Shown: one piece after another, positions 12,471-56,400 of the stretch | Numbering within the stretch: position 1 is the first letter of the stretch | Layout: every line of letters starts with the position of its first letter | DNA from: Branchiostoma floridae | Taxonomy: Eukaryota; Chordata; Leptocardii; Amphioxiformes; Branchiostomatidae | NCBI RefSeq assembly: GCF_000003815.2 | Contig: NC_049987.1 | Span: forward strand, 1,326,065-1,390,064 | DNA length: 64,000 bases | Reading direction: 5' to 3' | Program-made: the position numbers and the translations under genes | Notes under the pieces: generated by a model | What the model saw: the letters and a program-made list of their open reading frames with translations, nothing else | Database searches by the model: none | What the model was told of the DNA's origin: nothing

Positions 12471-12479
12471 GGGGTGTTG

Positions 12480-14370: not shown

Positions 14371-14376
14371 CTGGAA

Positions 14377-15660
14377 ATCATCATCATCATCCTTTATTGA
14401 TTTCAACATAGCAGACAAAATAGCAGCCTGAATAGCGTTGAAATTTACAACATAAAAACCGTATATATACAATAAGAAACAATATACTAAAGTAGTAAAC
14501 AACATCTCCGACGTTAAGTAGCCATTGTTACTGCCTACATGTCTACAGTCTTGTTGTACAGCTTGATAGCTGTGTGCAGGAAAGAGTTCTGAAGTCTTTT
14601 AGTTCTAGCTGGGGGGATGGAGAAAGTGTTTTTGTTTCTCAGTGATCGTCCCGTGGCAGTTGATCTGGAAGGTGGAACTATGTCGTGTAGGGGATGGTCA
14701 ACATCCAACATTTGTGTGAAAAGTTTGACAGCTGCATCCTCGCGTCGCGACTGGAGGGTGGGTAGGTCGGGCACATCGCGCCTGCCCGCTCGGCTGATGA
14801 TCCGTAGAGCCCGCTGTTGGACTCTCTGCATTGCGCGTTCCTGTTCCTTGCTACAGCCTACAAGGAGGACATTACCGTACTCGAGGACTGGGCGCACGAG
14901 GGACACGTAGATAGTCACTAGGTCGGCGACACTGGTCCCTTGCTTTGCAAGTAGTCTCAAGAAGTGCAGTCTACGGGAGGCTTTAGTAACCATTGAGGTT
15001 ACTTGTTCTTGCAGGGTGAGATTTTTGTCCAAGATGAAGCCCAGACCTTTTGCGGAGGCGACCCACGGAACGCACACACACCCGAGGGTTAACCTTGGTG
15101 GGCTGGGAACGGATCTGCAGACACAGATTTGTAGCAGTTGGCTCTTCTTCCCGTTTAGCAACATGTTGTTGGTGTCAGCCCACGAGTCGAGATGAGATGT
15201 CTCTTCCTCAAGTGATTTGTCTTCGATGGCTTGAGGTACTGATAGAGTTCTGGACATTCCGACATCGTCCGCATAGCCCACATTCATAGTGTCAGGATGT
15301 ACTGTTGTCCTTGAGCTCATAAGGAGTAGGAAAAGGTACGGGGACAGTACACCACCTTGTGGGACACCAGACGTCGGCTCCTTCCAGGTACTGGCCACGC
15401 CATTGACTACTACCCTCTGACGCCGACAGCTGAGGTAGCTGTGGATCCAAGACACCATGCGTGGAGTGGCCTGGATATCGATCACACGCTGTAGCAGTAT
15501 GGCATGATCGACTCGATCGAAGGCTTTAGACATGTCAGCAAATAAAGCTCTGACCACAGTTGGCTTCTTAAAATCCAGCGCAGTTAGCCAAGTTTGTACC
15601 ATACGCACAAGAGCGATCGTAGTTGAAGAGCCCCTCATGTACGCGTACTGATCTTTAATG
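14377..15660 (-). mobile_element. LINE-C, 3' part (RT palm to C-terminus)
   Basis: The minus frame 15660-14535 is open for about 375 codons. It opens with IKDQYAYMRGSSTT (RT block 2-3) and continues with FADMSKAFDRVDH (block A, catalytic Asp), SGVPQGGVLSPYLF (block B) and VGYADDV (block C, catalytic Asp pair). The thumb region and C-terminal ARTKRLQNSFLHTAIKLYN block follow. The 3' UTR ends in AATAAAGG and a tail of about five ATG units (14377-14390). The style is CR1/L2-like (jockey superfamily). Upstream the frame stops abruptly at 15660, where the (AGTAG)n tail of LINE-PHD begins. The missing upstream part resumes at 27302, so this is the downstream half of a split element. Confidence 0.85.
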
Positions 15661-16885
15661 AGTAGAGTAGAGTAGAGTAGACGTCCTTCGGTTGAGTAGG
15701 AGTTCGCACTCCATGGAACCGCTCCTGATCAACTGCTTCTTCCTCTCTGCAATCAGCTGACTGTGATGTTTGGTTTATGGGGATTATCCAAGGCCCTGTA
15801 GTTGTACACTACTGCGTGGTTCTCCATCAGTCTGTCAAGTCTTATCTAAAAACTGTTTACTGACGGTGCTGTNNNNNNNNNNNNNNNNNNNNNNNNNNNN
15901 NNNNNNNNNNNNNNNNNNNNNNNNNNNNNNNNNNNNNNNNNNNNNNNNNNNNNNNNNNNNNNNNNNNNNNNNNNNNNNNNNNNNNNNNNNNNNNNNNNNN
16001 NNNNNNNNNNNNNCTTTGTGTATACAGTCCATGCACATATTTGTACGTATTGATGAGGTCTTTCCTCAGCCGTCGATACAGTAGTGTTGGCAATTTCAAG
16101 GCTCGGAGTCTTTCTTCATATGATAGGTCCTTCAGACCGGGAACCCTTTTCGTCGCTCTCCTTTGCACATTTTCTAAGAGGTCAGTCAATCTCCACGTAC
16201 TCGGGGACCATATCGGGCCACCATACTCAATGTGGGGTCTTATTAGTGACTTATATAACAGAGTGAAGATTTCCTTATCCACATGGTGGAATGTTCGCCA
16301 CATGATACCCGCCATTTGATTGGCCTTTGATGCTATGGATAAGATGTGATTTTCAAACATCAAGTCTTGATCTATAGTAATTCACAGATCTTTTTCCTCT
16401 TTGTTGAAGGTCAGGTTCACCTTCGCCGCAGACTGGTCAATCATGTGGTATGTAAACTCTGGGTGCTTAGAGCCCACCCTCAGAACAATACATTTGCTGG
16501 GGTGGAACCTTAATTGCCACTTGTTTGCCCATTCTTGCAAGCTGTTAAGGTCTTTCTGTAGGTATTCACAGTCCTTGATGTTACATACACTTCGATAAAC
16601 TTTCGTGTCGTCTGCAAAAAGTTTTGATTTGCTCTGTACTACTTCTGGCATGTCGTTGATGAAAAGTGTAAATAGAACCGGACCGAGAACGCTACCCTGC
16701 GGTACTCCGCTAGTGACATTTGCCCAACTTGAGCGTGCTCCGTTCACGCAAACTCGCTGCTTACGTTCCGTCAGGAAAGACCTCACCCATTGGAGCATGT
16801 TACCACATATCCCGTAGCTTTCGACCTTTCTCAGTAGTCTCTCAATTGGTACCGAGTCAAAAGCTTTTTGGAAATCGAGATATAT
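15661..16885 (-). pseudogene. LINE-PHD ORF2, RT palm and C-terminus
   Basis: The minus frame starts at the LINE-ES insertion point with IYLDFQKAFDSVP (RT block A). It continues through SGVPQGSVLGPVLFTLFIND (block B) and LFADDTKVYRS (block C). A second frame (from about 16363) carries KSLIRPHIEYGGPIWSP and VQRRATKRVPGLK, the conserved thumb and C-terminal blocks of CR1-like ORF2 proteins. A frame change near 16380 and a TAG codon close to the C-terminus (just after VNSF) disable it. 141 unknown bases interrupt the C-terminal coding part. Its upstream half is at 23630-25432. Confidence 0.85.
15873..16013. other. Assembly gap
   Basis: 141 N residues fall inside the C-terminal coding region of LINE-PHD ORF2. 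The true length is unknown. Confidence 0.99.
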
Positions 16886-16888
16886 AAA

Positions 16889-16902
16889 CCAAGATGGCGG
16901 CG
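16889..16902 (+). promoter_or_regulatory. YY1-like motif at the 5' end of LINE-ES
   Basis: CCAAGATGGCGGC lies within the first 17 bases of the element. It matches the YY1 consensus (AAGATGGCGGC). In mammalian L1 a YY1 site near the 5' end sets the transcription start. The same role here is an inference from position only. Confidence 0.45.
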
Positions 16903-17113
16903 ACGACGGTCATGGCGATCGCACGCTCCTGCTAGAATAAGTTAAATTGTGTCTAACCGTGCGATCCATTTATTATTTTACATTCTACTAGTTTGCTGAT
17001 GTAAGTTCCTTCTATTTGAGTAGTTTTTTGCGTACTTTTGTCTATTTTCGCTGCAAATACGGCGGTAATTTAGGAGCAACACAAAACCCAAGCCGACCCA
17101 AACGCTCGGAACA

Positions 17114-17324
17114 ATGGCGACCGTTGGAAGTGACCCTGAAAAGTTGTACTCGGCACTCGGAGTTTCACCCACAGCGACTCACGATGAAATTGTCGCTGCC
17201 TACAAGACAGAGCTTCTGTTTGTACGAAGAAACACGCAAGCTCAGCAGGACAGACAGCGTCTTCAAGGAAGCTGATGCAAAGCACAAAGAGGTGAGAAAG
17301 GGTTCTTTCGGACGCTTCCCGTAG
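17114..17324 (+). pseudogene. J-domain-like fragment near the 5' end of LINE-ES
   Basis: A short frame from ATG at 17114 to a stop at 17273-17275 (53 codons) reads DPEKLYSALGVSPTATHDEI and then VAAYKTEL. This closely resembles helices I and II of DnaJ-type J domains. The HPD tripeptide that should follow is absent. In the next frame VFKEADAKHKEV resembles J-domain helix III, so a frameshift in between is likely. AAAGAG followed by GTGAGA at about 17290 could be a former splice donor. It may be the start of ORF1, or a host exon captured at the 5' end. Confidence 0.45.
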
Positions 17325-17447
17325 ACAGCAGTACAACGACAGCCATACCATCCCTGACGCGCCAAGATTCTCCAAGAAATCGCTGAAACAGCCTAGGAAC
17401 TATTGTATACAACACAACGCTCAAAGTATCAGTATATATCTCCCCCC

Positions 17448-19652
17448 CAATCATGCGAATTCCTGCCTTTCTAAATGTGAGGAATTCTACAACACTCGAG
17501 CAAAAGACGAGTCCAGTGACGGTCATCACATCAAAACTACGTTTGTTGATACCCAAACCAAACAGTCGGTTGGTACTGTGAGCATCAAAATCTACGAATC
17601 GACCCAGAAGTTGCTGATTCAAGGTTCGGCGTACTTGCTTTGGTTTTCGGAAGTGTTTCCTGTTCTCCGACAGAAGGTACAACAGAACATTAGTTCCACT
17701 CCTCTCGTGAACAATAACACGGTTGTTTCATCTCAGTACACAAGTCTGGAGGATTCTATAACGACTGTGAATAGCAGCACTACACTTTGCCAAACATGTG
17801 ATCAACCCCTTGCGTCTGATGTGTGTCCGCTGTGCAGAACTGTACCTAAAGGTTTGCTTGATGTAAACAGTAATGAGACTGAAGTTGTATCTGACAATTC
17901 GTCTAACACTCAGACAAATGTGGCGGATCGGTGTTTCTCTTCTAATTGCTCTATTGTTCAAGACAGTGTAAACAAGCTGGAAACGTGTCTAGTTGATTCA
18001 ATCGCCGACAGAAAAGCGTTTGAGGACTCTATTTCACAACGGCTGTCTGTCCTTGAAGACAAACTGAAAACCTCCGGCCAAAACCACAGGTGTAGCGGTC
18101 TCACTATCGAAGAAGGGAAGAAGCTGAAAGATGACATTGTGCGTCTTGAAAGGGAAAAGCGCGATCTTGATTATGAAGTCAAGACGTTACGACACAGAAT
18201 CGACGAATTAGCCGAGACCACATCAAAGCGGCAAGTGACATCGGCGGCAACCCAAACCAGGGGGAATCAGGATTCAGAACGCGCCGACAGGCTAATCCGC
18301 GAAGTGGCGACAATAAAGGTACACAACAGATTCGAGNNNNNNNNNNNNNNNNNNNNNNNNNNNNNNNNNNNNNNNNNNNNNNNNNNNNNNNNNNNNNNNN
18401 NNNNNNNNNNNNNNNNNNNNNNNNNNNNNNNNNNNNNNNNNNNNNNNNNNNNNNNNNNNNNNNNNNNNNNNNNNNNNNNNNNNNNNNNNNNNNNNNNNNN
18501 NNNNNNNNNNNNNNNNNNNNNNNNNNNNNNNNNNNNNNNNNNNNNNNNNNNNNNNNNNNNNNNNNNNNNNNNNNNNNNNNNNNNNNNNNNNNNNNNNNNN
18601 NNNNNNNNNNNNNNNNNNNNNNNNNNNNNNNNNNNNNNNNNNNNNNNTGATCCAAAGGTCATTTTGTAGCCGGTCCGACGAATGACATACGGGATCTAGA
18701 GACGCTACATTTGGTGACAGAGAACTTCGCGAACTAATCCAGGGTAACCCACGAGAAGTATCCACGCACCAACCTTGTCATATCTTCAGTACTACCAAGA
18801 GATGACCCCACCCTCCAACGATTTGGCGATGACGTCAACACCTTCCTGAAGGTCGCCGCTGATGAGACGTCTTACATTCACACCATAGACAACTCAAACT
18901 TCGCCGCCTCTGGGACCATCAAGAGACCCCTGTACTCATCAGACGGATATCATCTCAACAGAAATGGGATTCGGGTTCTGGCTGCCAACATAAAGCGAAC
19001 GATCAACCCCCTCGTAGGCCTGGGCCATTACATGGGCCGAAGGAACGACCCTATCAACAACAACCAACCTACAGCAAACATCAAGCTAAGTTCTCCGAAC
19101 CGCTCGTACAGAGACGCAGTAGTCGGTGCACAGATGGGCAGACCCAGCCAGACACCTCCCCGATTCCAACCACCTTCCCGATCCCAACCCGCTCCAAGAC
19201 CAACTCAGCCTCCTACTCGCTCCCAACCTGCTCCAACTTCAAGTCACCACCCCGTGCACGGACAGGAACGCCCTGCACCGGCACCTGAGAAAGCCCCGAC
19301 AGAAAGTATGCCTGTCATTTCTACCGAACCTTCAACACAGAGAACAGGACAGACGGTCGATGCGCCAAGGGTTAGCGGCCCTATGACCATGCAAGGGTCA
19401 AAGTCCTCTACTTCGAATGGCCAGACGGGGGAAGCAGCGATCACACCCAGACACCGTGCAGGACCCTGGAACCAGCCCCCACCCTCCGGACCTTGGAGCC
19501 GGCCCATGTTCCAGCCTCCTCCCGTGCCCTGGGGACCCCCTCCTACGAACGCCAACTTCCCCATCTCGCCCCGACATCCACCGCCGATGAACCTACCGCC
19601 CTGGCCATGGCACCCAAGTATGATGTGGCCGCCGATGTTCGCCATGTGGTAG
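17448..19652 (+). pseudogene. LINE-ES ORF1: zinc ribbon, coiled coil, SGNH esterase-like, Pro-rich tail
   Basis: An open plus frame runs from about 17448 into the gap. An N-terminal part with VGTVSIKIYESTQKLLIQG precedes a zinc-ribbon-like CQTCDQPLASDVCPLC. A charged coiled coil follows (about 18010-18235). After the gap the frame carries PTNDIRDLETLH, like SGNH block III, and SSDGYHLNRNGIRVLAANIK, like SGNH block V with its catalytic Asp-x-x-His. A Pro/Gln-rich tail ends at 19652. A TAA at about 18735 interrupts the esterase part, and the catalytic Ser block would lie in the gap. Esterase-type ORF1 proteins are known from CR1/L2-like LINEs. The frame change across the gap may only reflect its arbitrary length. 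Confidence 0.75.
18337..18647. other. Assembly gap
   Basis: 311 N residues sit inside LINE-ES ORF1, between the coiled coil and the esterase-like domain. Open frames reported across it on the minus strand are artefacts of the N run. Confidence 0.99.
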
Positions 19653-19983
19653 GATGTATACTGGGACTGTACCTTGCGTCACCCTATGTGCCTTTACTTT
19701 TGAATTCCCTTTTTTATTTTTGCTTGTTATCTCTTTAAGAACTGCTAGACTCATTGTCTGTTAACGTTGGTATTTAATCTCCGGGGGGCTTATGATAACG
19801 TTGGTATTTCATAAACATATACCAGTAGTTTTAGACTTCCTATTTATAGTATCTCACTGAAGGTTTAGAATGTATTGTCATAGTATCTCTATTTAAATGT
19901 TTAACTAGTTAAGTATTGTCAAGTATTGTGGATTCGGACCGCAAAGACACAATTTTTCTTAGTACTAGTACTTTATCAACAGT

Positions 19984-22900
19984 ATGAAAACATTCACAGG
20001 CGGAAGCAAAAGTTTTGGTGCCTGGAACGTTCACGGTTTAGGTACCAAATTAGAGGATATAGATTTCGTGTCTTATGTAAACAAGTTTGACTTCTTCTCG
20101 CTCCTAGAAACCTGGAGCACAGACAACACAAAAATCAACATTCCCGGCTACAGTTATTTCCACCAATGCAGACAAAAAAACAAGCGAGCTAAGCGCTCCT
20201 CGGGGGGTATAATATTCTTTTACAAGAGAGAGTACAGAAACTACGTCAAGAAAGCACAATCCAAATCTACAGATGTTCTCTGGGTACAGATAGACCGAAA
20301 GCTACTGGGCCTACCAAAAGACTTGTTTATTTGTTCGGCATATATTAGTCCATGTGCATCGACCACCCACAAATACGCAGAAAATCATACATTAGAAATC
20401 CTAGAAAGCGAAATATCTAGATATAGTTCAGACGGATTTATTTTACTTGGCGGCGACTTAAACGCTCGTCTTGGTGATTTGCGCGATTATGTAGATGATA
20501 GCACTCCTGACGATTGTAATCCAGACAGCTTCCCTTACTCCTCGGATAGACAACACATGGATAAGGCCCCTCCGAATAAATTCGGCAGGCATATTGCTGA
20601 CCTATGTGTTCAAGCTAACCTAAGAGTTCTAAACGGGAGGGTGGCTGGGGATTTACAGGGGAAATTTACCTGCCATCAACCGCGTGGAAGCAGCACGGTT
20701 GACTACATAATTTGCAGTCAGTCCCTGATCCCACATATCTTATCGTTTCACATAAAACCATTAACGTTATTCTCTGATCACTGCATGGTTTGGGCATTAA
20801 TCCAATCAAAATCAACAAATCACTCCTATCAAGAAAGCCGGAACATATCAAATGCAAAACCTCTCCCCAAACAGTATAAATGGAACGATAAATCAGCCCA
20901 GAAGTTCCTTTCTTCTCTCGGCCAGTCTCATTTTGTCGATAGACTACGTTTACTTTGTTCTAACGTTCCAAACAACACACTGCACAAAAACTCAAATTTC
21001 CAGGTGTTTCAAGGGACTTACACACCTGTGAAATGTTCTGTGTCCTGGCTGTGTACATGGCTTTCCTGGTTCGGCGTGTAATGTCCCTGTTTTTTCTGGT
21101 TTGACAAAACCTGCATGGAAATGACAAGGGAAGTGAAAAACATAGCATCTTTACTGGAAAAAAAATCCGTCGAATCCAGACATAAGGGGTAGATTCTTCA
21201 AAAGTAAAAAAGAATATAAGAAATTGCTAAAAAAGAAAAAACGAGATTTCCACCAACAAATCATGGATCAATTGTCTTCACTAAGGGAAAGAAATCCGAG
21301 TGCATTCTGGAATTTGATAAATAAACTGAAACCAGGAAAGCCAAATGACGATAACCAGATTACAGAAGAGGAATGGGTAAACCACTTCAAGAATCTTGAC
21401 AAATTTCCTGATAGCCCTACAGACAACGGCCTTCCCAGTGAAAACATTCAAACAGACTTTTCGACCACCCCACCAAACTCGTCAGAACTAGATTCCGCAA
21501 TTACCCCAGAAGAATTGGACACCGCAGTCTTAAAACTAAAAAACAATAAGTCAAGCGGCAATGACAGAATTTTGAATGAAATGCTAAAATCTGGTAAAAT
21601 GTTGCTTAAAGAACCTATACTCCACTTGTTTAACACTTGCTTACAAAATGGTCATTTCCCGCAAGAATGGTCAGTAAGTCATATTGTTCCTATCCACAAG
21701 TCAGAATACACCTCCCTGCCAGATAACTACAGAGGGATTTCTATAATCAGCTGTTTAGGGAAATTATTCTCCTCCATTCTAAATTCACGCCTTGTCAAAT
21801 ACGCAGAACACAATAACCTCTTCCAGCCACACCAAGCAGGCTTCAGACAAAACTTTAGAACTACCGATAATCTGTTTGTTTTAAGTACACTAGTTACCAA
21901 ATATCTAAACAAAAACCGTCAACTTTACGCTTGCTTCATTGATTTTAGCAAAGCATTTGATTCCGTTTGGAGAAACGGCCTCTTGTTTAAATTGAGTAAA
22001 CTCGGTATTGGTGGTAAATTTCTAAAAGTAATAGAAGGCATGTATTCAAAGACTATAAACTGCGTTAAATCTAAAAATGGATTGACTGAAACTTTTGTTA
22101 CTAACTGTGGTGTGAGACAAGGGTGTAACTTAAGCCCTACATTATTTAACCTTTTTCTAAGCGATATTGTGTCCCAATTTGACGGTGCTCCTTGTAATCC
22201 CCCACTTATGCACAGCAAAACTGTCCCATGCTTGTTGTATGCTGACGACTTGGTAATTTTTTCCGAGTCCAAACAGGGATTACAGCATTCCTTGAACAAT
22301 CTGGAAAATTATTGTGCACTTTGGAAATTAAAAGTAAATCTTAGGAAAACAAAAATTATTGTATTTACAAAGGGTGGCAGTCTACCTAAAAACTGTTCTC
22401 TCCTGTTTGATAATCGTGAAATAGAAATTGTAACTTGTTATACTTATCTTGGTATTATTGTGAGTGCAGCTGGCACGTTTAAAGCTAACAACAAATACCT
22501 GAGTGGCAAAGGTCTGAAGGCTTTATTCGGAATAAAACAATCTTTAGATAAAGCCACCGCCTCATTACCAGTTAGAAACAAACTTTTCGATGCATGTGTC
22601 AAACCTATTCTACTTTATGGCTCAGAAATATGGGGCGCATTTAAAAGCCCTAAAACCTGTCCCATTGAATCTGTTCACCTTAAATTCTGCAAACAAGCAC
22701 TAAATGTCCCCAGACCAGCATCTAACCTTCCACAAGAGCGGAATTAGGGAGGTACCCCATTCAACTGGAAGCCTCCCTGAACGCTATCAAACACTTTCTA
22801 AGAATCCGTCAAAACGTGCCAGCTGACAGTCTACAAGCCAACGCCCTATCTTGTCAATTACAACTAGATGATAATGGAAATAAGTGCTGGGCGTCCGGCG

Positions 22901-41360: not shown

Positions 41361-41580
41361 TAACGCTAGTTCACTTTTATCTGTGGGGTAACCTATATCC
41401 GTTGTTTTTAAAAGCAGGTTGTTTATAATGGATATCAGGTCGATGGACGATGGTTTCAAGTTGCAATATTTTCAAAATATAATTTTCAGTTTGAAAACAC
41501 CCGTCCGTTAACTTGATATCCCCAAACACCCTGCTTTTATAAACAACGGTTACCCCACGGATAAAGGTGAACTAGCGTTA
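41361..41580. mobile_element. TAACGCTAG inverted-repeat element, copy 1
   Basis: TAACGCTAGTTCACTTTTAT at the left is mirrored by ATAAAGGTGAACTAGCGTTA at the right. The complementarity extends inward through GGGGTAACC and the CAGG blocks, so most of the 220 bp can fold. A related 218-bp copy lies at 45130-45347. Non-autonomous, with no coding capacity. Probable TA target. Confidence 0.85.
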
Positions 41581-41980: not shown

Positions 41981-44900
41981 TCATTTCTTTGTTTTTAAAA
42001 CATACTGCAAGGTTTTTCTCACGACTGGTAAACACGGTCTATCTGTCTTCTCCTTCTTGCATTCTTTGGCAATACGAACAAAAATATCTAATTCTACAGA
42101 CTTGCACTTTCTGGAAATCCTGTCAACTATATATCCTACTGAAAACATGTCACTTGCAATGCTTACTGCATGTTCAGCGCTGCACACTTCGGGTGCAATC
42201 CAGGGATATTTGGAATGTGATATTGGCTTGGCCTTAGTTGTTGCTTCTGATATCAGACACGCTTGTCCAAAATCTATGATTTTGATGTTCCTTTTTGAGA
42301 CAACAATGACATTATTTGGCTTCAAGTCATTGTGTATGATACCCATCATGTGCACCTTGAACAAAGCAGATAGTAGGTTAATGATGATTGTGTACCAGCT
42401 CCACTTGTCATACTGGTCTGGGTGACAGTTTATAATGTACTCAATTGTAGTGCTTTTTCCGTCTTGGCCTTCGAATCGGGTTAATAGATGGTATGGAGGA
42501 GGGTCGAGTATTACACCAACTAGCTTTTGTACACCGTCAACATTTATCAATGCCCTCAGCATATTGAATTCTGTCAGGATATGACGCTTTGTCTCCTCAA
42601 CATCATATTTCCCATTCCTTTCAAATGATTTGTCTGCAACTAGTCCGTCAACAGGAAAATTAACTCTGCACACCTTGCCATATGCTCCACGCCCAATAGA
42701 CTCTGCCGAAGAAAAAGCTTTAACCAGGGTATCATGGTCATATTTGTACTGAGGAGGAATATCTGCAAGTTTGGTAACAAAGGATGAAGCAGTGCGATTT
42801 GACAGCGCTTCATACAGTATACTCTTCTCTTCATTTAAGGCCACTACTTGGCATAACAAATCCTCATTCCCGTCTTTCAGATCCTGTCCTTTTGACTCCA
42901 ATTCTCCAACTCTACTTCTTAACTCCTCAACAGTCTTGTTCTGCTGTTGCAGTTTAACTCTCAAAACTTTTCTTTCTTCTTCCACTTCATCTAGCTCCCT
43001 TTGAATGGCTTGATCAGCAGCTTTGCTTCCTATTTCAGAGTTTGATGGTAACGTTACATTTCCTTTGTTTGATTTGTTGAGCTCAATATTGCTCTCTTGA
43101 GTGTTTTGCATTTCATTGTCTCTCTCAACTCTTTCTGGTTGTACGATCTGTACTTTTAGTTCTATCCCATAGTAGTAGTAATCTCTCTTCTCCCTACAGC
43201 TACTACGGCCACTACGGTTAAAGCGCACGTTGCCATTGTACATTCCTTTTAAAATCCTTCCAAGATGTCTGTTGGACAATTCATGTCCAAGATCAACTTC
43301 TTCTTTGATCTTCTCCCTGAGCTTCTCTGCCCTTATCTTGGATCCCTTTTGTTCTTGCACATTGACATTCAACCTGCAGAAATATGATAACAAAAAACGT
43401 CTATTTATACTCTGTGGCTGATTTGCCTATATCACTCTTTTAAAGTCTTAGTCAAGTATTTCAACCCTACGAATGATTTACTCGAGACAAGGGCCGATGT
43501 CAAGGTTTGACAAAATAAGACAATGAAATGTATAAGAAAATGAATGGCTTTGTCAAGGAGGGAACAAATTCTCTTGATTGAACCATGCTTTTAACTTTTT
43601 AAAATCCAAAAGACATTGTAGGCAGGTTCACCTTACCAACAAAATGGACCTCAAACGAATCTATATGTTTCAAGGATCTAAGTGACACCCTTGATACACT
43701 GTCTATCTGGTTATTACTGATAAAAAGGTATAGAGAACATTCCCATGCAGACCCCCCAAAATGACAATCCAATATGACAGCAAGAAATCATTTCTATGTT
43801 GAGTGTAACAATTTGCAAAAAAATAACCTGATATAATTGTTGTATAATTATTCTATCATTGCATAATGTGTCCAGGGCAACACACATTGACAACATGCAT
43901 GCTATAGCAGGTTAAGATATAGTGATCAGTGATAAACAGATTAAGCATTAGTTTGGGGAAATGGACTTTAGTAAATGACATACGAGTTGCAATATTTAGA
44001 TTAGCAAACTGTGTGCTATAAGTTGCATAATGTTGAATGCCATTTACATTAAAAGATACTAGTAGCTTGTTCATTGATATGGCTTATTTTCAACTGTGTT
44101 CGCCAAGGGAAAATACTGCATGTTCATTTCAACACTTTAAGAATGTTTCTTGTTTCTTTTTTTTTTTTTTTGCAATATGAACTGGGCTTTTGATAAGAAG
44201 TGATATCCACAGAGTCAACATACTATAAATAACTAGGCTGATGTTTGACATGAAGACATGACATGAAGTCCCAATTTGTTCCATTATCCAAGAATGCTTG
44301 TTTAAGAGAATGGCGAAAAAAATCTTGCCCACTGGTGTATTGTAAGAAGAAGTCAACTTACAACAAGCTATGTAATTTACATAACATGACCTGTGCAAAA
44401 TTGCTTTGTTATTATGATTAGTAATGAAGAATACATAGTGGTTATTGGTAACAAAAAAAGGAAAAATATAGTCAAAATTACTGACCAACTTTGCACCTTT
44501 ACTCCCATTCTGGAATTCAGACTGTTTCTCCTGAGGACAGGTGATTCAAAAAAACTTCTTTTAGATCATTACATTAGACACAATACAAATGAAAAAACAA
44601 TATGCTGAAAACAGTCACATTTGCAAAGATGTTCCCCTTCCCAATTCACTCTTCATTTGAAACTTCAAACTGGATTGTACTTACTTTGAAGACTTTTCTT
44701 CCTTGTCTGGAGCCCCTCCACACAGACCTAACATCACTTCAATATTGTTTGGCACTTGATTCATCAGTTGGTCTTTCTTCAACTGTCAAAACAAAGTGAA
44801 ATTTATGTAATCATTTCTTTAAAGCAGACATCTAACACAGACCATCAGATATTTTGGCAACATCAACTCTCAGAACTCCACTGGTTGCCCTAATACTGCC

Positions 44901-46726
44901 ACATCAATTCAAAGTGATTTAAAGAGATGTACCAATGCAGCAGCAGTAATCCTGAGATTAAGACATTTCAGATATCTATCATGTTCAAGACAATCTTGAG
45001 AAGGCCTCTATAACTACATTGTTTTTTGATGTGGCAGTATTATGGCACCTGGTGGAAATAGGAAAGTTTATGTATCATATGTTTAGTGTATATATGGCCT
45101 ATGGGTATGCAAAAAAAATTAAATGTACATAACGCTAGTTCACCTTTATTCGCAGGGTAACCTTTATCCGTTGTATTTAACACCAGGGTATTTCGTTATA
45201 TCAAGTTGACAGATGGAGGTCTCAAACTGCATTATAATGAAAAAAAGTGATTTGAAATCACTGTCCATCAACGTCATATCCCTAAATATCCTGTTTTTAG
45301 GTACAACGGATATAGGTTACCCCGCGAATAAAGGTGAACTAGCGTTAGTCCTTCTACTACACAGCTACTACTCTACAGCTCTCTTATGTCCAGTTCTTTC
45401 CACTGTAGTGAAAAATTATACCCTTCCGGGGAAACTTTCATGTCTCTCGCATAAGGAAAGTTTTCCCAGAGTCATGTCTGTGGCATACAGAAAGTTTTCC
45501 CGGAAGGGTATAATTGATATTTGTGATGAAAGAACCAAATTTAAACAAAAATCATTCACCATGTACAACTGCTGTGTAGTTGTTTCCCTTTACTGAAACC
45601 AAGAAGGTTTTAAAAAATCCTTGCTTAAAACTATAAAAGGTTTAAGGTGAGGTATGTCACAAACAAACAAACCTTCTTGGATCCTGCAACCAATGTCCCT
45701 CCAGGTGGTAGGATCTTCTCCCTCTCCAACTGTAGAGTAAGCTCTGCAACTGTCATTTCCTCCAGGACATCCATGCACCTGTGGTTTCCATGTAGGTCTT
45801 TCACAAACAGCTGGTGTATCCTTCATGTGAGAAATTTTGTAGTTACGTTTGTGCTACACATTCAGGTTTATTAACGTAAATGGTCTTTGGAAAAGTTGAT
45901 TCCCAATTTTAACTTTGGGAAATAATGTAAATACTGGCTGATACTAAAACTAGTAAGTGATCCTATTAAATTAGAAGAAATTTCATACATGTGTATTACT
46001 GGACTATCAAGCAACTTATTTACCTGAGACAGTCTCCTTTGCAATCATGGTCACTGTTTCTGTCTGTGGATGCAGATGGCTCCTGATGGCATTCTGATCT
46101 GTGGATAAGTGTGATTAATACTTTCAATAAACAGTTACACTTCAGCAATCCCTCGAAGAACCACTAGGTAAATTAAATATGCAACTTTAATACTGCAGCT
46201 GCTTTTTACTTCATCTCACAAAAGAATCAAACTTTCTGAGTTACTTGTACAGTTTGAAAATATTAAGTTTGGCACTCAATCTCAATAATATACCTTGATA
46301 CCTAATATATAATATATTGGGCAAAACTCTCTATGAGGGCATTTCGCTCAGAGGAGGTCCAGGCACTTAGTACAACGTTTTGGTACCAAGCAGGCAAGCC
46401 CGAGAAACACGCAAAATTAGGTCAAGAGAGACATAAATCAATCAGTGCAAGACAAGAGAACATGGCACGAGCTATCTATTCTTTCCGTGTCATTATGGTG
46501 CGATCGGCACGCGAATCAAGAAAAGGGTGTTAATCCCTGGATTTTCCAAGTGATTAACTTCTTAATAGTATTTTCCTTGTCTAATGACCGATAACTGATC
46601 AAACGTGTGGGACGATTATCACCCGATTATCGCCCCATTGTCACCCAGAGAAAATAAAACTTACCTCAAGCTGGGCCCGTTATTGCAGGTGGTACTTTCG
46701 CCACTGTCCCGGTAAAGCCGGCCCAT
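41981..46726 (-). CDS. Ubiquitin-like / winged-helix-like / coiled-coil protein kinase, 591 aa
   Basis: Five coding exons on the minus strand: 46726-46665, 46098-46024, 45820-45673, 44782-44685 and 43373-41981. All have GT-AG borders; phases match and the total is 1776 nt (591 codons plus stop). Residues 47-118 are ubiquitin-like: QLFVKDLHGNHRCMDVLEEM, LPPGGTLVAGSKK, and VMLGLCGG aligned with the Leu-Arg-Gly-Gly end of ubiquitin. Residues about 150-202 (NRHLGRILKGMYNGN to DYYYYGIELK) weakly resemble an RFX-type winged helix. About 246-318 is a coiled coil. 345-586 is a kinase domain: IGRGAYGKV (354-362), VADK Lys376, Glu396, HNDLKPNN with Asp477, DFG 495-497 and APE 521-523, so activity is plausible. 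HND replaces HRD. The start is the in-frame ATG in the first exon. It diverges from the 348-aa gene. Confidence 0.82.
43733..44680. other. Intron 4 of the kinase gene
   Basis: AT-rich intron sequence with an A/T homopolymer near 44157-44171. No exon or element with clear ends was recognised inside it. Confidence 0.5.
45130..45347. mobile_element. TAACGCTAG inverted-repeat element, copy 2
   Basis: Same termini as the copy at 41361 (TAACGCTAGTTCACCTTTAT and its inverse), with an inner GGGTAACC block and a more diverged middle. It lies in the intron between the two exons encoding the ubiquitin-like domain. Confidence 0.85.
45414..45515. mobile_element. 102-bp palindromic element
   Basis: AATTATACCCTTCCGGGGAA at the left is mirrored by GAAAGTTTTCCCGGAAGGGT plus ATAATT at the right with one difference. 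A third partial arm (AGGAAAGTTTTCCC) sits at about 45454-45467. It can form a long hairpin. It lies in the same kinase-gene intron as the preceding element. Confidence 0.7.
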
Positions 46727-47466
46727 TAACGACCCCATCCCACGCTTGTTTAATACCAGTCGGCTATATCTTCACCGAGGACGCCGATGTAAAATAGAAG
46801 AACGTCGGAAGACACGGCTACTCTTACTGACTGCGAGTGGGCAAGTTGAGATTTGGCGGGAACACGGCAGCCAAACGTGATACATCAACACTGTGGTTTA
46901 TCATGCTATTAGGTCCGCGGTGCTTAAATTGATAGCATGTCCAACCCAGTAAGGTTTTACAATATTTACTTCAACTGCCTGTGGTATCAATAACAGACTT
47001 GCCAGAATTATAATAATTCATTGTGGCCATCTAGTTTATTTGCTTTTGGATGGGTGCGGGGCTGAACGCACGCGTCTGGATTGCATTACATAGGGATGTA
47101 GGGCGAGACTATATTATGCTTGTGTTTGATAACTCTGCTTCTTTTCTTTTTTAATACTTGCGTAAGATTCCAGCGAAGAATCCCCTCTAAACGATACAAC
47201 ATAATTTGATAAAAATGTAGCCTGCAAAGTGAACATTTTATGTTGCTAAAATGAATTTTTATCGTTTTTAACACTTGCACAACGTATGCGTGTAGTATTG
47301 AGTTGGTATGACCCGACCTGTGTGGACAACTGCGTGGATTCCCCGGAGACTCGGTACTGCTTGCCGATTGGCCGGGCATGTTGGCAGCATACGTCATGCC
47401 ACTTTGGGCGCCAAGAGCGAATGTTTCAGTTACAGGCTGTTCCTGGCGCCATACACAGGCAAGAAA
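46727..47466. promoter_or_regulatory. Shared divergent promoter region
   Basis: The 740 bp between the start codons of two divergent genes is GC-richer than its surroundings. TTTGGCGGGAA (46861-46871) and TTTGGGCGCCAA (47403-47414) both resemble E2F sites, one near each gene. TACGTCATGCC at about 47391 contains a CRE half-site. No TATA box is evident. Cell-cycle-linked expression would be an inference from these motifs. Confidence 0.55.
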
Positions 47467-50400
47467 ATGACTTCTTCGTCTTCTCTTCGATTTGGGGGCG
47501 GCCTGCGCTTAGGACGCGAAGAGGAAGACGGAGATTTCGACAGAAACAAGGCAAATAGCACTGCTGTGGATCTTGAGGGAGGAAATGATGAAAGCTTGTT
47601 TGAAAGTCCCGGTTCTCCCGAGCAGTTTTCCGCCCGCACCACCCCACCCAGGCGGCGAGGAGGAAAGACGGGAAAGGGGTCAAAACCTTATCATCGAGTC
47701 ACAACTCCGGTGAGTGTTGATCACATGTATTAAAACAAAATGTTTTGCGTAGTTAATGTGTGTTGTTTTCTGTTACGCTGTACAGCTACATCTCGTAGTT
47801 ACAGTTTTGTGGAAAATATTAACTATGCTAGCAAACGTTAGAGCGTGTAACGTTACAGCTAACGTGGGGAGGGGGGTGTGGTAAAGTTTCCTTGGGACTC
47901 CAATGGGAGCATGTTGGCTGTAAAAGGAATTCTGAACTGAGGAGCTGGTCTGTGTAGGGCCTGGTAACTGTTTGACATCTACTGATGATGATCTAGGCTA
48001 TCTTTGCCTGTTGCAGTACTAGTTGTTGGGCCATTCCAAAAAATGAATGGGGGGGGGGAGGGGTTGAAGAGGTTAGATTTTGCAACCGCTTCAAACATTT
48101 TGGATTAAATCAGAGTGCCTTGACCCCCCCCCCCCCCCCCCTTGAATTTCCTTCAAGTGCCTCGCCCACCTAATTTCATCCGAGTGCTTAGACCCTTTTT
48201 TATTTCTTCCGAGTGCGTCTACCCCTTTTATTTCATAATCGAACTTCCAAGTGCCCTTACCCCCTATTAATTTTCATCCTTGTGTCTTGACCTTGCACTC
48301 TTACAGTCCTGCAACTGAAAGCTTCAGAAAGAGCCAAAGAGTAATCCAAATCCAGATTTTATTGACCTCGTAGAAAAACCCCAATCCAGACTTATTTTGA
48401 CCCCCATTGAAATGAAAACCAAATCCAAGATTTGCCTGGCCCCCTTTGTAACTTGTAAAATCTGTACTTCCCCACCCGGGGGTAAACAAAGGGGGTAGAA
48501 GTTGAACGCAGATGAAATTAAAGAGGGTCGTAGAGTAAATCTGGGCAGTAAAGCCTCTCCATTCATACAATTTGTTTCTCAAAATCAGCAGTTTATTATT
48601 TAATTAGTCTTTGACGTTGTTTTTCTTTGTTAGATCCTAAAGGGGATGGACTGTTGACAAAACTAACGTGGGGCATGTAGAGGCTGGTACCCTGGATATG
48701 TAAAAAGAGTGCAAGTGCCTGCTGCAAGTATTTCTATCCTGGCTGATAAGGAAGTCGAAAGAAGCTTCTAATTTGACTGTGATTATATGTATATTCTCTG
48801 TATACATCTAGAAAACAGTGCCAAGGACTGGAAGTCAGATGCTAAGCAGAAAGTTGGATGATGTGCTGGCCAATCAACAGGAAATCTTAAAAGGGATGGC
48901 CAAACTGCAACACATGCTGGAAGATGTCCAGCAGACAAAGGCAAAACAAAGAGGAGCAGCACAGCAGAAACTTGAAGTGTCTAATGATGTCCGGGTAAAT
49001 GTTTGACCTTTTCAATTGGTGATTGCATGTCTGCTGATCTCATTTAAAGAACCAAGGATATTATTCATGAAAACTAGGGGTGGGTACAGGTACGTACAAA
49101 ACCAGTTTTTCTTATTGGACCGGTTCAGAAAAATTGGACCTGAAGAAATTTGGTGGACCGGATGTTGGACCTATTGGAAAATGAACAGAGGTTATATTAT
49201 CAGGTATTCATATGTTTTGGGGCTTACCGGTCAAGGAAAATAACAAGAGCAAAGTAGAGTAGAGTCTGTAGTCATTTCTACCATGTTTTACAGTCAATAG
49301 TAGAGACAGTTAGCCTTATAGTATTTTAAAACGCCAATGGGAGTCGAATACTCCACAAAACAGATTTCTTTGCTGTGAAATGGACCATTGTTTTGAGTAT
49401 CGTTCATTCACAAGTTCTCCGGTGACATACTGAATCAGGTCCAGGTTCAGGTCCGGACCTGGACCTGATCCTCTGGACCTGAGCCGGACCTGAATTTCCT
49501 GTACCAGTACCCACCCCTAATAAAAACTGCATTGAGGCCATGCCAATTTGACTTCTTGGTTTTCAGATGTAAAATAGTAGATAAACAGAAAACATAAGAT
49601 GTCATAAAAGACTTTCTGAGTATCTGATATCCTGAAAACCATGTGCACTAAGGTGCAGCCTTTCCCCACAGATTCAGCTTCTTGTTGATATTTCAAGCTA
49701 GCAATATAATATCTTTTTGAAGCTTAAAACCAAAATCACATTGTTGTGGCCCAAACAATGCTATGTAGACCTAAGAAATACTTGTATTACTAATAGCGCC
49801 TACAAATCCCTTGCAAAAGATGCTGTATAGTCAAACCTGTCTATAGCGGCCACTCAAGGGACTAAAGAAATATGGCCACTATAGACAGGTGGCCACTATA
49901 GAGAAAATGCTGATCAATTGACCACGAGCAAGCTACACATGATTTCAGTTCCCACTAATCTTTCTCACCAGGTAACATTGTCTCAATCAGTAAATTCACC
50001 GACAAAGACTTGCACTTTAATGCTCAAGGCATGCATACCTTCTGCTACTGCCTAAATGACCCTGTCAGGAACTCCAAGTCCTCGCAAACTACAATTTGAA
50101 ACTCGGAGCAGGATTACATAACTGTTTCTGTATCAACGGGACCGGAAAATGTGTGGCCGTGGCCGCGTTGGACTCTAAGCCTATTTCTTAATTATTACGA
50201 ATCCAAGGGACCGACAAAAATTGGCCACTAGGGCTGGGTATCGGTACGGTGTATCAGTACAAAACCGTTTTTTCTTATTGGACCAGTCCAGAAAAAACAG
50301 ACCTTAAAAAATTCAGTGGACCGGATGTTGGACCTATTGGAAAAATTAACAGATTATCTGATCAGGCATTCACACGTTTCGGGGCTTACCGGTCGGGGAA

Positions 50401-53400
50401 AATAACAAGAGCGAAGTAAAGTAGAATCTATAGTCATTTCTACCAGGTTTTACAGTCAATAGTACAGAGGCTGTTTAGCCAGTGAGAGTTGAATACTCCA
50501 CAAAACAGATGTCTTTGTTGCGAAATGGACCATTGTTTTGAGTATCGTCCATTCACAAGTTCTCACATAATGAATCAGGTTCAGGTCCGGACCTGGACCT
50601 GATCCTTTGGACCTGAACCGGACCTGGACCTGAATTTTCTGTACCGGTACCCACCCCTAGTGGCCACTGTGGCCAGGTGGCTGCTATGCAAAGGTGGCCT
50701 TTAATACAGGCTTGACTGTACTATACATATGATACAGTCCTACATTTCACCATTATCAAAGAGTGAGAAGAAGCCAACTTTCTATGTTAGACTAGGTCTA
50801 TGATACTTTTACACATGTTTGGTCTTTTTTTGTGTGTGACAATCACATGTTCTTACATATTGTTACATATAGCTGGGTGAAAAAAATGTACAAAAAAGGT
50901 CTTCATTCTTATTTTTACCAAGATTCTAGACAACACAGACATATAATCCTTGTACTGTACTTTTGTTGCAGAATCTGGTTAGACAAGGCTATGACTATGC
51001 AGTAAACACTCAGGGAAAAGCCAAGTGGAATGGTGCCAAAGGAATGACGTAAGTGAAATATGCATACCTTTTTTAATGTTTCTTTTGAACAGGAACATTT
51101 CTTTTGGGAAGGTATGCATGGGCACCTGCAGATTATTAATTAAGAAATTTTACATATCTTTTATAAATTAAGCTTCACTTTTTTGACATTTTCTCAATGA
51201 TACATTTCAAGATTCATTTCAAGTGATGTTTCTCTTCATTGAAGGAATGAAGGTACCATTGAAGGAAAAGTTTTGATGAAGTGCTAACAAAGTACACCGT
51301 ATTCAGGTCAGCCACTGGAATGAATTCAATTTTTTGGGGAGTGCACTTCTAATATCCAGGAATATTTTGGTTCTGCTTGATTCCAGCTAATTCCGAGTAA
51401 GTTGGAGGAAGGGGGTTTGTGTGCAATATTCTGGTCCAGGTATGGCCAATACCTACAAACACCAATGGGATCTTTCAAATGTGACATTTTGACCTATCTG
51501 CAGTTCTTGCCAGGCCTGTTGCATTAGCGACCCAAGTCAGGATTGGACAAGTCCACTAGTCTGATTGTCCCGGGCAATGTCCTTCCCCACTTGTCCGATC
51601 GGGCAAGATTTTTTCATGAGATTTTGATATACTTGTTGCTTATCACAGTTACTGCATCAAGCATTGGTCAACACAGAAAAATAGAGCCAAATCATTTCAA
51701 TGATAAAGGAATTGCTGCACGTAAAAAAAAAGTAGTGAAAAATGTTAATTAAACTTTTGGGCAAGCAGAAAGTTGGTTCGGGCAAGTCAATTTTGCACGT
51801 ACTTGCCCGATAGGACAAGTAAATTTTAGAAAACTTGTTAAACCCTGCAAGTGAAATCCTCCAATCCTAACCTCTTTATTTTGAGCTCAGGCACTAGTGT
51901 TGGAGCAAATACATAAAAGTTTCTAATTTGCCTTAGTCATGAAAACATTATACAATATCTTCATGGCAAAAATCAGTTTAATTGAAAATGACAGCACTGA
52001 ATTGGTCTTTATGTTACTAATTGTTAGGGTATAATGCCATGATATCAGTTAAGTTCCCTTCACACGAGAGCAAGAAAGAGCCAGAATGCCGTCAGAATGA
52101 AAATTATTTGCTATTACTGGGAATTCCTGAGAATTGGTAGTGTGTTCCAGACATTCTCACTGCATCTCAGCTATTTGTGCCCATTCTTTTGGCTGGCCCA
52201 AAAGTTTTTGACATGTTGAAAACTTTAGAGGTGCATTCAAAGTGGAGAAATATCGAATGGCATTTGAAGTGGATTCTAGTATAAGTGTATTCTATGTATG
52301 GCCGCATTCTATGGCATTCCAGTCTTATTCTAAACATTCTTATCTCATTCAATGTAGAACCAAAATGGCAAGCCACTTTGAATTCTGCCAGAATGTGGCC
52401 AAAAGAATATCTGGAATGCAGTGAGAATTTCTAAAATACATGTAGCACACTACGAATTCAAAGGAATAGAAAATGATTTTTATTCTGATGGCATTTGGGC
52501 TAATCCTTCTTGTGTGAAGGGGATAGAAAGTCCATTTGGAATTTTGCAAATACTTAATTCCGGATGGTTCTGCTTGATTCCTGCTAATTCGGTTTCAGTG
52601 TGAAGGCCCTATTAAAGAGGATATTTTAGAAAAAATAAATCCTTCCTACAAACCCTAATTATAACCAAAAACAAAATTCTTACTTCACTTATCCTCCATG
52701 GTACATTTCCAACAAATATGACCATGCTGTTGGAGCAACGAGAAGTGACACATTGTGAATCTTTTGCAGGGCCACCTCAGAAGCAAACAACGCTACAACT
52801 CAGGCTGTACTTGAGTTTGTGCAGGGGCTCCTCCCAGGATATGGAGACAAGATTGGCATGGTCAAAGGTGCAGTAGTATTTTATAAATTACATGTTGAAC
52901 TTCATGGAATATACTGATGATAGTAATCTTTTTTATTGTGTTGTATATGTAGATTCTTGGTTCTGGTGTCATTCTCTCTTTTTTTTGCAATATCATTTCA
53001 AATATTTGAGGACAAAGGAAGTACTAGTAATTTGAAAATAATCATGTAAAAAACTTGACATGTCCAGGCATCCTTCCATCTTCAAAGATGCATGAAGTTA
53101 TGGCCCTTAATAGCGTCTTTTGTGGCTATGTAGGCTGATCCCCGCATGACAATGAAGATAGGGTCATACATACTTCTTAACATGATAGATGGTTAGATTC
53201 AAAATGATGAACTAAAATAGAGCAAACTGATTTAGGTTTTGAACTGAATTGGTGGGAATTGATGAAGAAGGACTGAAGTTGTGTTTTCCCTCTTTATGCA
53301 TTACAGCTGCTGTTACCACATACTTTGGGAGTAAGAGAAAAGAAGAGAGGAGGGAAACAAAGGGCAAGAGCGAGAAACACAAGAAGCAGTGCTCTCGAAA

Positions 53401-54897
53401 CACAAGGATAGCCAAAGTGAGTCTTACAACGAGTGCTGTATGCCCCTTACCACCTGTTTTCAGGCATGAAAGCTTTTGTACATGTATGTCCGCTGAAAAG
53501 ATGGCAGTTTGCATTTCTTTACAATGTGACCACAAATAAAATAGTTATCTATTGAAACATATTTTGCAAGATTATTTTTTTTTAGCTCAAATTTAGAAGT
53601 TTTGAAAAAAGTTTTGTTGAATGTATGTTGAACATAACAACCAAAACTGTTCTAGCTGCCAGCTTTTCAGCAACTGATCAGCTAGCTTTATTGAGGTGGG
53701 TTCACACATCGGTTTATTTTCACGTGCTTTAATGAGGTCCCAAATTCTATCAATATAAAGCTGTAGGCCTAATATTTTTTTGAACAAATTAAATTATACG
53801 CACATCTAGCGTGACGTATAATTTGTATGAATCAAATACCAATTCCGTATGAGGTGCATATCAATTTGCGCAACCCAGTGTTTTCCTTGCTGTGGACAGC
53901 TGTGTATGAGGTATGTAGTTGAAGCAGTGCGTACGTTATGCGCATGCTGCCCAGATGTCATGCTGCGATATCAGTGTATTACTGTGTACACTTTAAAGTG
54001 CAAACATATAACATATTCGCCTGCACTCAACTGACGTGGGACCAATCCATTGCATATTTATGAGTTGCGTAGCTGCGTACGTATGATGGTTTTGTGCCTG
54101 TCCAAAACTATCATCGCCGTGCGTATGTCTGCGTACTCAAAACTTACTCAAAACAATTCAGATGTGTATGAGATGCGTATTGTACGTATGACTGCGAATG
54201 GGAAAATGTCAATTCAGACTTCATACGGAGTTAGAAATGTACGCACGTGTGAACCAACCTTTTAGGGCAAAATGAACAAAAAATGCTGTCCAAAATCCCC
54301 TACTAACTGACTGATGCCCAACTGTGTCAGGGACGCATGCAGCAGTAAAATCAAATACTACTGCAGGACTTGAGAAAATTATACTAATTTTGAAATGACT
54401 TTCCAACCTGAGGAAGCTCTTCATGGAATGTACAATGTATATCACTTCCAGATAAGACACCAAAATACTATTTGTGTCATGATCAAAGCATTTACACTTA
54501 CCACTATGTTCTGTAATAGATTATGGTTGAAACTTAAGGCACTTTACTTTTTTTCAAACAGAAACTGCAACATCGCCTCAGCGCTCTGAGAGCAAAGACA
54601 TCATATGACCCAAGCATCAAGCAGAAAGTACAGCGTGTACTCCTGACAGAGTATATGTCCTCAGAGGACTCCGGGGACTCTGATGAGGAAGAAAAGACCT
54701 TCAAGACCAGGCCGATTCCCTGGCAGTCAGACTTGTTTACAAGATACAAGCGGGAGCTTGACTTTAAGTACAGCAAGATGCAAACAGACTTAGCCAGGAG
54801 ACAATCTGTTAAGAGGGTCCCAGGCCCACCCTCAACCTCTAAGGTAAAAAAACCAATCCTGTCTGAACAGGATGATTGGATTTGTAAGCAACTTTAG
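47467..54897 (+). CDS. 348-aa coiled-coil protein with C-terminal MSSED/PW module
   Basis: Six coding exons on the plus strand: 47467-47709, 48812-48994, 50972-51048, 52770-52867, 53307-53416 and 54562-54897. All have GT-AG borders; the phases agree and the total is 1047 nt (348 codons plus stop). Residues 1-81 are polar with an acidic patch and TTPPRRRGGKTGKG. About 90-135 (LSRKLDDVLANQQEILKGMA) is a coiled coil. About 142-200 (NLVRQGYDYAVNTQGKAKWN, LEFVQGLLPGYGDKIGMV) is a probable globular part. About 205-235 is very basic (GSKRKEERRETKGKSEKHKK). The last exon carries YMSSEDSGDSDEEEKTF and RPIPWQSDLFTRYKRELDF. The final pattern recurs in relics at 31.0 and 34.0 kb. I recognise no named family; a nuclear, nucleic-acid-linked role is suggested only by the basic and acidic tracts. 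Confidence 0.8.
48040..48480. repeat. Decayed tandem repeats with G and C homopolymers
   Basis: In intron 1 of the 348-aa gene. From 48110 a degenerate unit of about 35-45 bp (GAGTGCYTNGACCCC, then TTTTATTTC) recurs about five times. From about 48345 a second unit (AATCCAGATTTTATTGACC-like) recurs about four times. A poly-G run (near 48050) and a run of 18 C (near 48125-48142) are included. Confidence 0.6.
49075..49519. mobile_element. hAT-type non-autonomous element, copy 2 (445 bp)
   Basis: Starts TAGGGGTGGGTACAGGTACG and ends GTACCCACCCCTA. Flanks ATGAAAAC and ATAAAAAC are an 8-bp duplication with one mismatch. It has the AGGTCCGGACCTGG subterminal palindrome and a CTTATTGGACCGG block. 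It lies in intron 2 of the 348-aa gene. Confidence 0.88.
49828..50718. mobile_element. CAGTCAAACCTG inverted-repeat element, interrupted
   Basis: The left end reads TAGTCAAACCTGTCTATAGC followed by GGCCACTCAAGGGAC. The right end, inverted, reads CAGTCAAGCCTGTATTAAAG. Repeated TGGCCACTATAG motifs fill both arms. hAT-type copy 3 splits it at TTGGCCAC. Its own length without the insert is about 0.45 kb. TA flanks suggest a TA target. A partial relative lies at 62091-62165. Confidence 0.75.
50229..50659. mobile_element. hAT-type non-autonomous element, copy 3 (431 bp)
   Basis: Starts TAGGGCTGGGTATCGGTACG and ends GTACCGGTACCCACCCCTA. Flanks TTGGCCAC and GTGGCCAC are an 8-bp duplication with one mismatch. 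It is close in structure to copy 2 and is nested inside the 49828-50718 element. Confidence 0.88.
51530..51850. repeat. Repeated TTGCCCGAT/ACAAGT motifs, unclassified
   Basis: Between 51530 and 51850 the motifs GGACAAGT, CTTGTCCGATCGGGCAAG and CTTGCCCGATAGGACAAG recur in both orientations. The unit is probably a dispersed repeat in intron 3. No end structure was resolved, and the open frame across it is not supported as a gene. Confidence 0.4.
52046..52610. mobile_element. CCTTCACAC inverted-repeat element
   Basis: The left end TTCCCTTCACACGAGAGCAA and right end TTTCAGTGTGAAGGCCCT are mutually inverted at the tips. The inner arms hold many GGCATTC/GAATGCC-type inverted pieces. About 560 bp, no coding capacity. 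It lies in intron 3 of the 348-aa gene. Confidence 0.5.
53696..54260. mobile_element. GGTTCACAC inverted-repeat element
   Basis: The left tip AGGTGGGTTCACACATCGGT is mirrored by GCACGTGTGAACCAACCT at the right. The right half is filled with GCGTAC/GTATG-type short repeats. No coding capacity. It lies in intron 5 of the 348-aa gene. Confidence 0.55.
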
Positions 54898-55850: not shown

Positions 55851-56400
55851 GTAATTCTGGGGAGTCATTGGTAAACTTCCAGCTAAATGTGGGGAAAAGA
55901 GGGTATATGTGATGTTATTCTAGTAAAGGTTGTGTTATCCCAAGGTAAATACAGCTAAATGTAGGGAAATAGGGGTAAATATGGCATTGAATATTCTGGT
56001 GAGGGTATATGTAAATCCGAGGTAAATATGGGTAAATACAGTTATACGAAAAATACTCCGCCTGGTAAATTTCGGTAAACGCGGACAATATATGAGAAAT
56101 ACCTCGTACGGTAAATCCAGGTAAACGCATGTTTACACAAACCTGGTAAATGTGGGTAAACGCGGAAAATATATGAGAAATACCTCGTACGGTAAATCTC
56201 GGTAAACCCATATTTACACGAACGTGGTAAATGTGGGTAAATCAGGCAAACATTACCCGCTTTACCATGCAGGTAAATGCCAGGTATATTTGCACATTTA
56301 CCGGCGGGTAAATGTCGATAAATCCCAGGTAAATCTAAACTTTACCCGGCTATACATAGCATTTACCAATATGGTAAATCTGACTTTTCATGCAGTGCAA
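55850..56400. repeat. GGTAAAT-rich repeat with an 81-bp tandem duplication
   Basis: GGTAAAT and its complement recur dozens of times at irregular spacing. Two direct copies of an 81-bp unit lie at 56080-56160 and 56161-56241, each starting CGCGGA and ending GGTAAATGTGGGTAAA. The open minus frame here is a repeat artefact. Confidence 0.8.

Follow-up and report, generated by a model that had tools for sequence, protein, structure and literature searches.

Predicted ubiquitin-like domain, RFX-like winged helix, coiled coil and protein kinase in the product of a single lancelet gene and of its diverged second copy

The window analysed in this study is a stretch of 64,000 nucleotides (nt) from the lancelet Branchiostoma floridae (contig NC_049987.1, positions 1,326,065 to 1,390,064), and its minus strand carries a five-exon gene for a predicted protein of 595 amino acids (aa), in which our analyses support the order ubiquitin-like domain, RFX-like winged helix, coiled coil and protein kinase. 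Our preferred reading, to which we assign a probability of roughly 0.6, is that of one intact gene whose product would combine an attached ubiquitin-like domain, an RFX-like wing, assembly through the coiled coil and a trans-phosphorylating kinase. As a diverged paralog on a second contig, C16, retains the same order, the order is more than an accident of one gene and the unusual combination looks real and conserved. A first-pass annotation of the DNA had proposed this order and had known of no described family with it; likewise, among the papers listed by our search of the open literature none was seen to describe a kinase fused to an RFX-like domain, whether a ubiquitin-like domain was present or not. 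The gene may already stand as uncharacterized in subscription papers or in databases of predicted animal proteins, which lie outside that search.

Reading of the window sequence confirmed the five exons, with GT-AG introns and frames that chain from one exon to the next:

46665..46738, minus strand: exon 1, with the ATG at 46738, reading MGSLMGRLYR...; MGSL is also found in the C16 paralog
46024..46098, minus strand: exon 2, with the paralog exon 2 found in the same reading
45673..45820, minus strand: exon 3, coding for the ubiquitin-like domain over its first two thirds (aa 50-99); the paralog exon is 61% identical
44685..44782, minus strand: exon 4, last part of the ubiquitin-like domain, ending ...LCGG (aa 100-122, 44714-44782), followed by a short linker; the paralog reads ...LNGGAP
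41981..43373, minus strand: exon 5, 1393 nt including the stop, with winged helix, coiled coil and kinase

The open frame of exon 5 runs to 463 codons, against an expectation of about 1.7e-9 from base composition over the six frames of the window. The first-pass annotation had described a protein of 591 aa; its exon joins hold, and the first ATG, at 46738, lies four codons 5' of its start at 46726. The model of 595 aa is the better one because the C16 paralog also begins MGSL.

The paralog was found in a 513-Mb lancelet assembly of 431 contigs, where the winged-helix region matched five places at E ≤0.001, namely the gene itself, one place on C16 and three on contig C6. On C16, exons 3 and 4 match at 61 and 62% identity and the exon-5 homologue in pieces of 36 and 55% identity; exons 1 and 2 were recognized by reading. 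Intron 1 of the paralog is in frame only with the weaker donor GGC/GTGAGG, as the stronger GTGAGT four bases on breaks the frame. It is very improbable that the model has joined what are really two genes, one small and ubiquitin-like, the other for a kinase. The five-exon join is a prediction from genomic sequence, which counts against our reading, and a third copy, at C6:26.147 Mb, has a winged helix, a coiled coil (by eye) and a kinase in one open frame, with no ubiquitin-like exon detected by hidden Markov model (HMM) in the 20 kb around it (C6:26143001-26163000, best E 1.8). The C16 paralog nevertheless carries the same five exons in order, with introns 2-4 in the same phases as in the window gene and a linker that reads through, and the two-gene artefact was rejected for this reason.

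The same residue is encoded at 231 of the 499 codons aligned between the window gene and the paralog. The ratio of nonsynonymous to synonymous substitution rates (dN/dS), counted without aa 382-460 because of a run of N in the paralog, was 0.34 overall. By region it came to 0.26 in the ubiquitin-like domain (72 codons), 0.18 in the linker with the winged helix (81), 0.39 in the coiled-coil region (124) and, within the kinase, 0.36 at its start (41) and 0.27 in its C-lobe (135). All of these values are approximate because dS, at 0.81-2.5, is near saturation. Each module from the ubiquitin-like domain onward thereby appears to be under constraint. With this overall ratio for the pair and a window copy that is open throughout, a pseudogene was rejected. 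Besides the near-saturation of dS, two points weaken this part of the case: exons 1-2 gave a dN/dS of 0.83 (46 codons), and the run of N falls within the kinase N-lobe of the paralog, whose completeness and activity cannot be judged.

The ubiquitin-like domain, which the first-pass annotation had placed in exons 3 and 4 with a Cys-Gly-Gly end, was borne out by sequence profiles. Local alignment of the region with ubiquitin gave z 6.8-6.9, a score matched by 1 of 5000 shuffles in one run and by 0 of 2000 in another; global alignment gave z 7.6 (0 of 5000 shuffles), and exon 3 alone z 6.0 (0 of 2000). Other ubiquitin-like proteins scored lower, with FUBI at z 3.1. A profile built from the two paralogs gave 81% over 69 columns, including the Gly-Gly, in hhalign comparison with six ubiquitin-like proteins, and 258 matches at E up to 1 among all PDB sequences. 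The best 60 of these 258 were all named ubiquitin, ubiquitin-like, or ribosomal S27a/eS31/S31e and L40, ribosomal proteins that are made as ubiquitin fusions, and the best single-unit chain among the matches listed was 2jvc (E 3.2e-5, positions 3-73). With this profile, sequence homology to ubiquitin was found over the domain. A PDB result of E 4.5e-10 for the single window sequence was set aside and is not used alone, because its score was built up over nine tandem ubiquitins, each contributing about 5 bits; the single ubiquitins in the same search reached E 0.46-0.76. Within the genome, the ubiquitin-like query found only the window and C16 genes (four exon matches, E up to 1).

Several results weigh against this assignment. 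Exon 4 alone scored z 0.3 against ubiquitin, a score reached by 714 of 2000 shuffles, and the whole region scored z -0.5 to 1.7 against NEDD8, ISG15, parkin and RAD23. The gathering score of PF00240 was not reached, with no ubiquitin match at E up to 1 for the whole protein or up to 10 for the domain alone. The single window sequence gave 24% over 49 columns in hhalign (0 of 300 shuffles reached its score), and the rise from this value to 81% came on adding one relative.

Mapping of both copies onto ubiquitin found Leu8 and Gly75-Gly76 kept, Ile44 changed to Leu, His68 to Glu and Val70 to Met/Val, and both arginines of the tail replaced in both copies (Arg72 by Gly/Ala, Arg74 by Cys/Asn). The protein therefore has the C-terminal Gly-Gly of a conjugated modifier without the Arg72 that contacts the activating enzyme (E1) in ubiquitin, and we infer that the domain probably stays attached and does not serve as a conjugated modifier. 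In ubiquitin-S27a/L40 and FAU, a ubiquitin-like unit ending in Gly-Gly is likewise followed by another protein; the lancelet protein differs in having lost Arg72 and Arg74, in being fused to a kinase and in having about 49 residues before the domain. It is unlikely that the gene encodes a precursor of this kind, as ubiquitin-S27a or FAU, in which a protease would cut after Gly-Gly to yield a free modifier and a protein of winged helix, coiled coil and kinase. Such a precursor would agree with the conservation of Gly-Gly-Ala-Pro between the two copies (63% identity across the domain) and with the profile aligning to ubiquitin-S27a chains to eight positions beyond the Gly-Gly, but it sits poorly with the loss of both LRLRGG-tail arginines and with a cut that would precede Ala-Pro. 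One study (PMC3731359) describes Arg72 as indispensable for the E1 of ubiquitin to recognize it, whereas the E1 of Nedd8 accepts an Ala at that position; the point bears on activation and not on protease cleavage.

The second module occupies the start of exon 5:

43151..43372, minus strand: predicted RFX-like winged helix (aa 133-206), from a PDB profile search, a structure model with fold searches, and bridging homologues

A profile of five family sequences, searched against PDB sequences, placed RFX5 first (E 0.015) and RFX1 fourth of the five matches listed; matches to actinohivin and to an enterotoxin (E 1.3) were taken as chance. The structure model (predicted local distance difference test score, pLDDT, 69.9) has the order strand-helix-helix-strand-strand. 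RFX1 and RFX5 ranked 1 and 2 of 995 for this model in VIA-align, and Foldseek ranked RFX5 first (E 3.1e-3), so that the modelled domain has the fold of the RFX DNA-binding domain and the earlier call of an RFX-like winged helix gains support. Bridging comparisons gave z 11.9 between the C11 sequence and RFX5, z 11.2 between C11 and C6, and z 5.7 between C11 and the paralog. The RFX transcription factors (PF02257; RFX1 1dp7, RFX5 8zjr) are thus the best match by profile and by structure, sharing the winged-helix fold, a YYGI-type wing end and basic wing residues, whereas the window domain falls below the Pfam cut-off and is fused to a kinase.

A series of observations tells against the RFX assignment. 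Sequence identity to RFX is 17-18%, and helix 1 of RFX is not evident in the model. Direct comparisons were weaker than the bridged ones, at z 3.1 for the window winged helix with RFX5 alone (60 of 5000 shuffles), z 3.7 for the C6 winged helix with RFX1 (25 of 5000) and z 4.0 for the C6 with the window winged helix (16 of 5000). Foldseek gave no match at E ≤0.001, and RFX1 was not among the best 50 of its 186 matches. The gathering score of PF02257 was not reached, with no RFX match for the region at E up to 10, and the window gene is absent from the 10 genome matches of this family at E ≤0.001. Single-sequence hhalign gave 14% (0 of 300 shuffles reached its score), rising to 85% after two relatives were added. 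One row of the alignment behind the structure model was locus L044; this sequence exceeds the RFX cut-off in its own right and could have steered the model; two broken C6 fragments, L007 and L008, also serve as rows of the winged-helix alignments. L044 (961-1830, minus strand, at G000:C11:11.96 Mb) is a frame of 289 aa whose winged helix, of the RFX family, scores above the Pfam cut-off; no kinase was seen in that frame.

A role as a nuclear transcription regulator, in which the RFX-like domain would sit on an X-box-like site and the kinase would phosphorylate chromatin proteins there, is possible but doubtful. To judge by their titles, the structures of RFX1 and RFX5, the closest in both fold and sequence, contain DNA or a nucleosome, and the lancelet wing has 7 Lys/Arg among its 27 residues. 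The low sequence identity argues the other way, as do the 3 Asp/Glu of the wing, where RFX1 has no acidic residues. The N terminus MGSL[ML][GA]R, conserved in the window gene and the C16 paralog, fits an N-myristoylation pattern; if real, this modification would favour a role at membranes or in the cytosol over one in the nucleus.

The remainder of exon 5 holds the other two modules:

42815..43024, minus strand: predicted coiled coil (approximately aa 249-318), from heptad periodicity and a helix in a low-confidence model
42125..42709, minus strand: protein kinase domain over the stretch matched by Pfam (aa 354-548; PF00069 at 90.7 bits, cut-off 31.7)

The coiled coil, also part of the first-pass annotation, is supported by the heptad period of hydrophobic residues at aa 247-318, reached by 5 of 5000 shuffles, and in the corresponding segment of the paralog, reached by 11 of 5000. 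Pfam gave many weak coiled-coil families there, all below cut-off in the best 25 of 39. Exon 5 folded alone, without relatives, had a pLDDT of 42.2, a point on the other side, as such a model is unusable for the structure of the kinase and the coiled coil.

The kinase call was upheld, as the Gly loop (GRGAYG 359), Lys (VADK 377), catalytic Asp (HNDLKPNN 479), DFG (499) and APE (525) are all present. In the Pfam search of the whole protein that the first-pass annotation had recommended, this was the domain that passed (PF00069), the ubiquitin-like and winged-helix domains both falling short of their gathering scores. As HND replaces HRD, the kinase is of the non-RD type. The nearest solved chains are of mixed kinds (3q5i 'Protein kinase', LIMK1, ZAK/MLT and TAK1; best E 2.4e-12) and so point to no single kinase group. 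It resembles other protein kinases in its usual motifs and differs from them in HND for HRD and in having no close solved relative.

In the mechanism that we propose, the coiled coil would hold the protein as a dimer or oligomer, and the RFX-like wing, with its several basic residues, would bind nucleic acid or a partner. Through this binding the kinase domains would come close enough to phosphorylate one another in trans. The ubiquitin-like domain would remain attached and serve in docking or regulation, as its counterpart does in IKK/TBK1, although on the opposite side of the kinase. The function suggested by the first-pass annotation, a coupling of ubiquitin-type recognition and DNA or partner binding to phosphorylation, seems reasonable. 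IKK-beta and TBK1 also combine a kinase, a ubiquitin-like domain and a helical dimerization region in one chain. TBK1 has an N-terminal kinase, then a ubiquitin-like domain, then a scaffold/dimerization domain, according to one paper (PMC3983252), whereas the lancelet order is reversed, with the ubiquitin-like domain N-terminal, the kinase C-terminal and a winged helix between them, and so departs from that of this family. A more speculative and distinctly improbable role would be in innate-immune sensing in the lancelet: the N-myristoylated protein, dimeric through its coiled coil, would bind cytosolic DNA or RNA with its wing and thereby switch on the kinase, while the ubiquitin-like domain would recruit effectors of the ubiquitin pathway. 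This would make it a chordate kinase class with an RFX-type winged helix sensing nucleic acid outside the nucleus, a class for which no counterpart was seen among the papers listed by the literature search.

Exon 5 matched 28 places in the genome (92 of the 109 candidates scored), and the C6:26.147 Mb copy was the sole further frame of winged helix, coiled coil and kinase found besides the window and C16 genes. The long-frame loci read besides L020 were L023 and L028, in whose frames no winged helix was seen, and the remaining long-frame matches begin no earlier than query position 216, so that they fall within the kinase. Winged-helix searches of the genome found no further intact place; matches on C6 near 25.77, 27.14 and 19.52 Mb were broken or truncated fragments and are left out of the gene count. 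The HMM picked up no ubiquitin-like exon in the stretches examined near the fragments (best E 0.37). C6:21.59 Mb (three stops), C6:27.40 Mb and C1:32.31 Mb (87% over 60 aa) were set aside as partial pieces. On one part of C6, at 19.5-28 Mb, relatives of the kinase gene cluster; many of them are short, and those examined were broken or partial. The combination of winged helix, coiled coil and kinase is probably the older one, the ubiquitin-like exons having joined later, before the C9/C16 duplication. A search of viral and prokaryote collections, which reaches close relatives only, confirmed no relative at E ≤1e-3 (2 and 35 stretches, respectively, matched the pattern).

Upstream of the gene, two blocks are shared with the C16 paralog:

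46854..46870, minus strand: 17-nt block CTGCCGTGTTCCCGCCA, beginning 132 nt before the ATG and found exactly in the C16 paralog at 159 nt
47302-47387: longer similar block, about 560-650 nt upstream

An exact match of 17 nt was reached by 1 of 1000 Markov shuffles. The shorter block contains the E2F-like sequence TTCCCGCC. A multi-exon gene on the plus strand (window 47467-54894) lies head-to-head with the kinase gene and has colinear homologues on C16, where five exon-like matches occur in order (G000:C16:370001-400000; L006, L050, L051). Its exon at 54538 is 55% identical on C16 (E 5e-34), its first exon (47467) had no C16 match, and Pfam found nothing convincing in the three pieces scanned. 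Because the exons of the divergent gene are colinear and the upstream blocks are held in common, a joint duplication of the head-to-head pair seems more likely than copying of the kinase gene via RNA.

The window also contains repeats. At 41361-41580, just 3' of the gene, and at 45130-45347, in intron 3, lie two elements of about 218 bp that are nearly palindromic, have matching ends and resemble miniature inverted-repeat transposable elements; smaller hairpins occur at 44860-45073 and 45414-45515. Segments at about 49083-49522, 50227-50659 and 56147-56397, 74-81% similar to parts of the C16 region, were read as dispersed repeats, and open frames at about 10545-22700 resemble, by eye, reverse transcriptases and endonucleases of the long interspersed nuclear element type.

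In summary, an RFX-type winged helix, known from transcription factors, in one chain with a kinase would couple the binding of nucleic acid or a partner to phosphorylation. Two conserved copies of the lancelet gene, together with a third in which no ubiquitin-like exon was detected, would offer a ready system for studying how chordate signalling architectures assemble.

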